NCBI RefSeq assembly: GCF_032854445.1
Contig: NC_088297.1
Location: forward strand, 11,618,163-11,682,162
DNA length: 64,000 bases
DNA from: Liolophura sinensis
Taxonomy: Eukaryota; Mollusca; Polyplacophora; Chitonida; Chitonidae
Reading direction: 5' to 3'
Positions 47,601 through 50,600 of the stretch are shown piece after piece (positions within the stretch are counted from its first letter, which is position 1; each line of letters starts with the position of its first letter). Below the pieces are notes generated by a model. The model was given only the letters and a program-made list of their open reading frames with translations, searched no databases and was not told where the DNA came from. The position numbers were made by a program, and so were the translations under genes.

Positions 47601-50600
47601 CTAGTATGTGAATCCTCCAGAAAAAATGGTTAAAAAATCAGATTAAGAAATTTTTCGCTCTTTTAATATGAGAACAGTTGTTGTGAATCATGTGATACAT
47701 GTTCTCACAAACAGCAAGTCACACAAATGAAAGCAAATTCGTCTTGGAATAGCACTTCTTTAGGAAGACATAACTGCCTCAATGCACGAGAGCTATCAAT
47801 ATAACCCACAATTTTTCCCTGATGTTTCTTAATGACTCACTTTTAATACAAGATGCAATATTTTCCACTATCTTTTTTGATGACATTTCATCAAATGATG
47901 CTCAGAATTGGATTTGAACTCTCAGTCCCTACCTTCAAGTTGTATTACATAAACACACTGTACATTTCCACTGAAGATGTACATTACAGATATGTAACCC
48001 TATATGTTTCAAAAAGAATTCCTCTTAACTTTGTAGTACCTTTTCTTGTTCCTGATAATTTTGACAGCCACAAACTGTTCAGTTTTGTGGTCGTAGCACT
48101 TGACGACCTGGCCAAACGAACCTTTACCAAGCACCTCAAGCATTTCATAGCGATACACCATGTGGTCGTGCATCACCTTATAAGGAAGAGAAAAGCAGCC
48201 TCACAACAACAGCAAAAACATCACAGGGTTAAAGTCCAAGCATAAGCAGCAGAATTCAACTCTTGGCTCGTTTTCACAAAGCAGTTTTTAGTATCTCAAA
48301 TAAAATAATCAACAGGGAATATAGATGACTGAAACAAGTGAAAGTACTGGCTTGAGCGAAATGTAAATTTACAGTCTAAGGTGTCTCACAGTTCATACAA
48401 CTTAAAATGTCCCATAATTTTTACAATTTAAGGTGTCCTACAGTTCTAACAACTTAGTGTCCCACAGTTCTTACAACGTAAGGTGTTCTACAGTTTTTAC
48501 AATGTAAGGTGTCCCACAGTTCTTACAACTTAAGGTGTTCTACAGTTTTTACAATTTAAGGTGGCCCACAGTTCTTACAACTTAATAGTGTCCCACAGTT
48601 CTACAAAATTAAGCTGTTTCAAGTTATATAGGATGGCTCACTCATTTAACTTGACAGATATGAAAGACCCTTTCAGTGCAATGTGGATTTGTTTCCGTCA
48701 CATCAATTACTGACACCAACAGTATAAAGTTTCTTTTATCAAATCTATCCAACTATTAAATTTTGGCTCAAACTGCTTCCTGAAAACTTGCCTATTATCA
48801 ATTGTTTTTATGAATTTTATGAATTACAGTAATTCCTCAACCTTTTGGCAGGTCTTCAAGGTGCTTATCCAAGCATATTCTGAGGGCATTATTATGTGCT
48901 GAATGATAAAATTACACTTTTTGTGAAGCTCTGATATTGGCCAATTCAAACCAACGTGCATAAATTGCACTGAAAGTTGCTCTTTCATATGCCAAAAGGT
49001 TGAGGAATTAGAGTACATGCTGAGAAATATACGCATTAATAACCTAAATTAACCCCCAAAAATACTAAAAATACACCACCCACTACACTTATCTACTTTC
49101 TTTCTTGTCACATTAAACACAAGCCATGCTGAGAGAAACCATGCACCCATGTTAGACCATAAGCAAAGTTTCTGCTCGCTTTTCGCTCACCAAAAAAAAG
49201 TGCAAAAAAAGCAACAGCTACAGCGACCAATCAAATTCAAACTGGCAAAAGCAACAAACTGACATCTTTTGAACTACAAAAGCTTCTTCATTTCATGTTT
49301 GTGACCAATCCACATGTAAGCAAGCCATTTTAGCTCATGCATATGCATGTATTCAGCCAATGAGAAGCCACAAACAAACAGAGATCATGAATACACAGAT
49401 ATGCAAATGTGTTACCTCTTCTTGTTTCGAATAATTTTAATGGCTACTTCCTGGTCAGTTTTGTGGTCAATGGCCTTGATAACTTGACCAAATGAACCTT
49501 TACCCAGCACCTCCAGCACCTCGTAGCGATACGTAAGGTGGTCCCCGATTGGCTAAAGGTTTATCAAGATGATATTTGATTGGTCAGAAAGGAGTTTACA
49601 AAAACTACACCTTCTATTATTTCAACTACATCAGATTCTCTAGAAGTCTACAAATTTTTATTCTGCAATTATCTATACTAGTTTGAAGCCAACTAAAACC
49701 TGTTTTCTAAAACTAAACTACATTGTTAAGCTTTAGGAGTCTACTGCTGCCAGATTTTAAACAGAATGTTTGCAATTTGCGATTGAAAATAACCTTCGTA
49801 TAATTTGTAAAAATAAATAGTTAAAGTACAGATTAAGCATGATGCATTCAAGTACAGTAATTCAAAGTTACTGATCTTGCGTCACAAGTTACAGAGCACT
49901 GATAACTATTTATGGATCATCTTAACAATTTCAGTTCACTTTTCGATTAATTGCGAAACTATTTCTTCACTTCAGAATTTTATAAATTTGCATACATCAT
50001 TATGTTTTTTCTTTGAGCACATTGACCAATGTTCATTAAAGTGTTCTGCACTCATCTATATGGTACATGCATATGTATCCATCATATCTGCATTCATCCG
50101 GGTTTTTTTTTTTGCAGCAAAAAATAAATTACCACACTGTTGATCATAATCACTAAATACATCTCCTAGAATTATGCATATGATAAACATAATATGTAAT
50201 ACAATTTATCTAAGTGACATGCAAATAAATTTATTTAAATAAATTTAAACAATATCTTAACTTCAAGATACTTTGTTTCCTCGCTACTACAGTGTTTTAA
50301 AGAATAAAACACCTGATTTAGTACATCAGTCATTTCTAGACTTCAAATATTTTTTTTATTTAAGAAAAACATGTTTTGTTCAATTTTTCAACAGATACTA
50401 CGGTAAACATTACAGACAGAAGAGCAGAGAAGTTAACGTGGCTAGCTCATACCTTGATATATGATCCGTTGTCGTCGTCATACCCAGAATTCTGAGCGCC
50501 CCCTGGAATACCCTCCACTTTCTTTGCCTCTAATCCCAAGAACCAGATTTCTGGATAATCCAATATCTCCGTCTGTTCAAATTGTGTTAAGCGACTTCGG

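Follow-up and report, generated by a model that had tools for sequence, protein, structure and literature searches.

A candidate pair of mutually exclusive exons covering the NAPA2 and N-lobe segment of a DYRK4-like kinase in the chiton Liolophura sinensis

The window analyzed here, a stretch of 64,000 nucleotides from contig NC_088297.1 of the chiton Liolophura sinensis (assembly GCF_032854445.1, positions 11,618,163 to 11,682,162), carries on its minus strand a kinase gene of the DYRK family. Nine minus-strand exons were placed from the translated matches of human DYRK2 and from their splice sites, yielding a model that spans positions 50616 to 40805, with GT in 8 of 8 donors and AG in 9 of 9 acceptors. 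The constitutive upstream exon (50453..50616) encodes NAPA1 and the DYRK homology (DH) box, labels assigned by alignment to human DYRK2 constructs, and ends with GSYIK in phase 0. It is followed by exon A (49416..49552), by an intron of 1239 nt (48177..49415) that contains an element of a repeat family and a 26-nt minisatellite (48377-48606, 8.9 copies, upstream of exon B), and by exon B (48040..48176). Exons A and B are each 137 nt long, and each encodes 45 residues plus a terminal AG and comprises NAPA2, the glycine-rich loop and the catalytic Lys. The constitutive exon downstream of B (46839..46979) is entered in phase 2, donates at 46979 the base that completes the codon AGx to AGG (Arg), and presumably covers the segment from helix C to strand 5. 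Four further constitutive exons complete the kinase: 46101..46239, which runs from MNLYELIKK to IIHCDLKP and holds the catalytic loop; 45114..45195, which starts with ENILL and contains the DFG motif; 44458..44691, with the YTY motif of the activation loop; and 42064..42193, which ends with VKRCLE. The last modelled exon (40805..41042) ends with MRG and a stop codon, this being the 3' end as modelled. Runs of N in the assembly occur in the window at 4002-4201 and 56655-56854, and none lies between exons A and B. The second run is abutted by an array of a 36-nt unit (54322-56654, 65.2 copies, periods of 72 and 108 being also called), inside which lie open reading frames of about 100 residues. 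A 30-nt tandem repeat (60573-61158, 19.5 copies) contains minus-strand open frames of up to 256 residues, returns one Pfam match below the cut-off and is probably no gene.

Residues 2-372 of the 380 residues of isoform B, the product with exon B, align to human DYRK2 constructs (best E-value 5.6e-157), one of which comprises NAPA1, the DH box, NAPA2 and the kinase domain (PMC3677093). The Pfam family PF00069 is detected in isoform A as well as in isoform B. The hallmarks of class 2 DYRKs are present, namely NAPA1, the DH box and NAPA2, these three by alignment, together with YTY, HCDLKPEN and the kinase core. Both isoforms are identical to a provisional human DYRK4 sequence at 212 of 299 positions, to human DYRK2 at 195 of 299, and to the product of the chiton's own DYRK2-like gene, a separate gene whose kinase lies within a single open frame, at 201 of 299. 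From these pairwise identities, which cover DYRK4 and DYRK2, the exon-pair gene is apparently a class 2 DYRK of the DYRK4-like type.

Exons A and B, both bounded by GT-AG, are entered in phase 0 and left in phase 2, are free of stops, and encode segments identical at 33 of 45 residues. The original prediction, which had described two such 137-nt exons at these positions, with these phases and splice sites, this identity, and GKGSFGQV and the catalytic Lys in both, was re-derived in full. It also placed the start of either exon directly after GSYIK and its end at RNKK plus AG, in agreement with the end of the upstream exon at 50453 and the completion of the Arg codon at 46979. Splicing of A alone or of B alone leaves one open kinase frame down to the stop in the last modelled exon. 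Joining A to B produces an immediate stop at the joint (AGG TGA), and skipping both leads to a stop 19 residues past GSYIK, which bears out the earlier statement that inclusion of both exons or of neither ruins the frame. The pair shows the sequence features by which clusters of mutually exclusive exons are recognized (PMC3228551, PMC5740500): adjacency, equal length, equal phase, compatible splice sites and homologous translations free of stops. Human DYRK2, compared with the translated window, revealed no third copy of the exon in the gene.

The likeness of the two exons exceeds chance. They are identical at 99 of 137 nucleotides, with third positions alike in 24 of 45 codons, and when the corresponding 38 changes were placed at random on exon A in 2000 simulations, on average 21.1 and at most 28 residues stayed identical and a stop arose in 1467 of the 2000; the 33 identical residues and the lack of any stop in the observed pair go beyond these simulations. 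Between the copies, dS is 1.25, dN 0.217 and dN/dS 0.17 (Nei-Gojobori), with a bootstrap range of 0.14-0.58 for pN/pS. The 400-base flanks of A and B show homology no greater than single-base shuffles, of which 63 of 200 upstream and 57 of 200 downstream reach the observed score. On the strength of the dS, the dN/dS and the lack of flank homology above shuffles, the copies are old and constrained. The dN/dS comparison, which had been proposed as a check of the original prediction, speaks for constraint on both copies, and the recent decaying duplicate that it had named as its counter-case is not borne out by the dS, the constraint or the flanks. If all amino-acid change is placed on one copy, its ratio by hand calculation is still about 0.35, since the two copies, 1.2 kb from each other and of one and the same age, are each expected to carry about half of the dS. 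Where the other three sequences all agree, A matches them in 26 of 30 columns (P 0.007) and B in 26 of 28 (P 0.0003), rough figures in which all 12 differences are charged to the copy under test. Synonymous sites are saturated in the comparison with the chiton DYRK2-like gene, so that the exon duplication seems to postdate the split between DYRK2 and DYRK4, unless gene conversion kept the copies alike.

These figures bear on two other readings of the locus. An assembly artefact, a haplotype duplication or a recent local duplication might be invoked given the N runs elsewhere in the window and the heterozygosity of 1.24% reported for L. japonica (PMC11068029); with A and B identical at so few positions, flanks no more alike than shuffles and no gap between the exons, this origin is hardly conceivable. 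It is also unlikely, if far less strained, that only one exon works and that the other is an old silent or nearly unused duplicate, kept by chance or serving as a poison exon that shuts the gene off when joined. The immediate stop at the A-B joint would provide a ready off switch, and exon A has the weaker acceptor, with 11 pyrimidines in the 20 bases of its polypyrimidine tract as compared with 16 of 20 for B (two constitutive exons have 9 and 13 of 20), and departs more often from the residues that are invariant in the family (4 of 30 as compared with 2 of 28). Because of its poorer tract, and because it has lost the His found at position 3 in B and in both DYRK2s, A could be rarely used, and one copy may have recently fallen out of use despite the constraint. 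Nevertheless, both copies retain the frame, the splice sites and the core of the family at a dS of 1.25, and a poison exon has no need of a kinase sequence kept in frame with the upstream exon.

As to how one exon would be chosen over the other, only those of A (GTAAC) and B (GTACT) among the 8 modelled donors lack a G at position +5, which fits regulated exons, very few exons being compared. U1-pairing energies do not separate them, the values for A (-6.6) and B (-5.6) falling inside the range of the other donors (-5.1 to -10.3). The length of the A-B intron, 1239 nt, speaks against steric exclusion of the two exons, which seems unlikely. A clash between U2 and U12 splicing was also considered, and A and B are both GT-AG exons. 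Among the inverted repeats listed for the introns, no convincing competing pair of the docking-selector type was seen. A 26-nt inverted repeat (48825-48850/48990-49015) was considered as a splicing stem and rejected, as it belongs to a dispersed short element. This element (~48815-49025) has at least 39 further matches across the genome, with identities of 74-85% (40 listed with its own, from 2596 candidates), and looks like a non-autonomous DNA element.

The frame shift and stop upon joining are the only exclusion device found, a common one in human: 377 of 629 mutually exclusive clusters (60%) in a human survey hold exons of frame-shifting length (PMC5740500). The share is 91 of 122 for annotated exons but only 25 of 615 for novel exons predicted in introns (PMC5740500), and the latter figure counts against the chiton pair. 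Reads joining both exons occur in just 83 of those 377 clusters (PMC5740500), so most such human clusters have further regulation. On the fly X chromosome, of 16180 exons that carry no annotation of mutually exclusive use, only 90, located in 6 of 1705 genes, share features such as those of the chiton pair (PMC3228551). Taken as a prior, this rarity together with the frame logic makes the exclusive use of A or B likely.

The 12 differences between the exons are unevenly spread: 5 fall among residues 1-7, 1 among the 17 residues 8-24, 6 among the 14 residues 25-38, and none among the 7 residues 39-45. The glycine-rich loop and the catalytic Lys are identical in A and B, and residues 25-38 presumably extend from strand beta2 to strand beta3. 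The cluster in the first seven residues reaches a Fisher P of 0.01 for a block picked post hoc. Since the loop and the Lys are the same and 11 of the 12 differences lie in residues 1-7 and 25-38, the name NAPA2/N-lobe swap would suit the pair better than ATP-site swap. The original prediction, a functional mutually exclusive pair of ATP-site exons in a DYRK4 kinase, can in this light be kept in part. The sequence supports the pair, its differences in the N-lobe (12 of 45 residues, 5 of the first seven) and a DYRK4-like kinase, and exclusive use is what we infer from it; the emphasis on the ATP site has to be dropped, given the single change in residues 8-24, which include the glycine-rich loop, and so has the DYRK homology box as part of the swap, for this box sits in the constitutive upstream exon. 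NAPA2, which the swapped exons do carry and which is the more telling part, had gone unmentioned.

Position 1 of the exons corresponds to residue 140 of human DYRK2, in a numbering anchored on Ser159 and on the NAPA2 residues His144 and Tyr147 (PMC3677093). A and B both retain the Asp (143), His (144) and Tyr (147) of DYRK2, and NAPA2 is most simply read as D-H-x-x-Y at exon positions 4-8, with the variants DHLTY in A, DHMVY in B and DHVAY in human DYRK2. The spacing from this Asp to the catalytic Lys is 35 in A and B, equal to that from D103 to K138 in the trypanosome kinase TbDYRK2, where tyrosine autophosphorylation was in effect lost upon the NAPA2 mutation D103V (PMC3250476). The current view of class 2 DYRKs is that they self-activate once, during synthesis, aided by NAPA1 and NAPA2 (PMC3677093). 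In some class 2 DYRKs, self-activation requires NAPA2. Exon choice might swap NAPA2 so as to give two kinases of different self-activation, for example a self-maturing one and one dependent on a chaperone or partner, a possibility that we regard as tentative and somewhat doubtful; as the NAPA2 core is unchanged and the cluster test post hoc, such a maturation difference is a guess. It is decidedly unlikely that both exons are used and that their isoforms do not differ in function, with the pair kept for its separate splicing signals as a means of expression control. The catalytic residues and the NAPA2 core common to both exons would suit such equality, as would their equal distance from the provisional human DYRK4 sequence (28 of 38 for either exon); it sits poorly with 12 differences of which 11 are gathered in one stretch of 7 residues and another of 14.

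Within the chiton's own genome, the pair appears to stand alone among the matches listed. A search of the chiton's own genome with E-values up to 0.001 gave five matches, namely exon A, exon B, the DYRK2-like gene, a kinase that looks like a HIPK and one more distant kinase; among these five matches listed there is no further exon copy, hence no paralogue with the same pair. In the same genome, contig C99 shows COX1 matches at intervals of about 15.5 kb (seven matches, one partial) and contig C632 shows a single one, and the mitochondrial genome seems to have been assembled as a concatemer. No relative was matched among viral contigs. Other genome contigs gave 346 relatives out of 472 pattern matches, and the best 80 of the 346 are bacterial records with a best-segment identity of at most 60%; a few of those bacterial contigs are probably eukaryote contamination. 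One contig binned as Nitrospinota, DUZG01000105.1, encodes a DYRK-like kinase that matches residues 1-195 of the 195-residue query with 51% identity in its best segment, probably again through eukaryote contamination of the bin.

A literature search over titles and abstract openings, with subscription papers mostly outside its reach, found no described DYRK so arranged, in line with the earlier claim; its subjects were mutually exclusive exons of DYRK, DYRK4 variants, tandem duplication within kinase domains, the glycine-rich loop and mollusc cases, and no such DYRK figures among the papers listed. Mammalian DYRK4 is alternatively spliced, with variants that alter the ends or single residues, and is not known to have a duplicated N-lobe exon. 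Among other kinases, exon 9 of MAPK14 belongs to the C-lobe, away from the ATP loop, and JNK also has kinase exon pairs. The MAPK14 exons 9a and 9b are, like the chiton pair, tandem homologous kinase exons (PMC5224494). The closest known case is exon 7 of FYN, and the DYRK pair would extend a known kind of exon cluster to an unusual target. Exons 7A and 7B (FynB and FynT) of FYN, a human Src-family kinase, are mutually exclusive duplicated tandem exons that encode the segment directly ahead of the kinase domain and the beginning of that domain, ATP site included; the ATP-contacting residues are conserved, and the isoforms differ in tissue and in binding behaviour (PMC9741552, PMC5224494). In contrast to the chiton kinase, FYN is a tyrosine kinase from another group, and its swapped linker connects SH2 to the kinase and is tied to autoinhibition, whereas the chiton linker is NAPA2. 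The two exon pairs would have arisen independently, as we infer. The human frame-shifting clusters show the same frame shift on joint inclusion and are backed by junction reads, whereas the chiton pair is predicted; the main text of that survey makes no mention of a DYRK (PMC5740500).

The reading that we favour, and hold with reasonable confidence, is that A and B are mutually exclusive exons born from an old tandem duplication in a DYRK4-like gene, and that the choice between them tunes self-activation or N-lobe docking, not ATP binding. A single exon of a class 2 DYRK would have been duplicated in tandem long ago to give A and B, and splicing would include exactly one of them, while products with both exons or with neither, which carry stops, would be removed or inactive. 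Either choice would give a kinase domain that is complete and unchanged in its catalytic residues, but with different NAPA2 surroundings and residues 25-38. One gene thereby probably makes two versions of an enzyme, and the exon chosen could tune, cell by cell, the folding of the nascent kinase and the self-phosphorylation of its activation-loop tyrosine, or else docking on the N-lobe. The corresponding segment of the kinase fold is duplicated in FYN too, which suggests that it may be a favoured one for kinases tuned by splicing. An isoform pair that differs around NAPA2 and keeps the same catalytic parts would offer a natural experiment on DYRK self-activation. If exon choice does give two kinases of different self-activation, the once-only tyrosine self-activation of DYRKs would be a regulated step set by splicing, and if the pair is conserved across molluscs, this switch would be a long-lived one.
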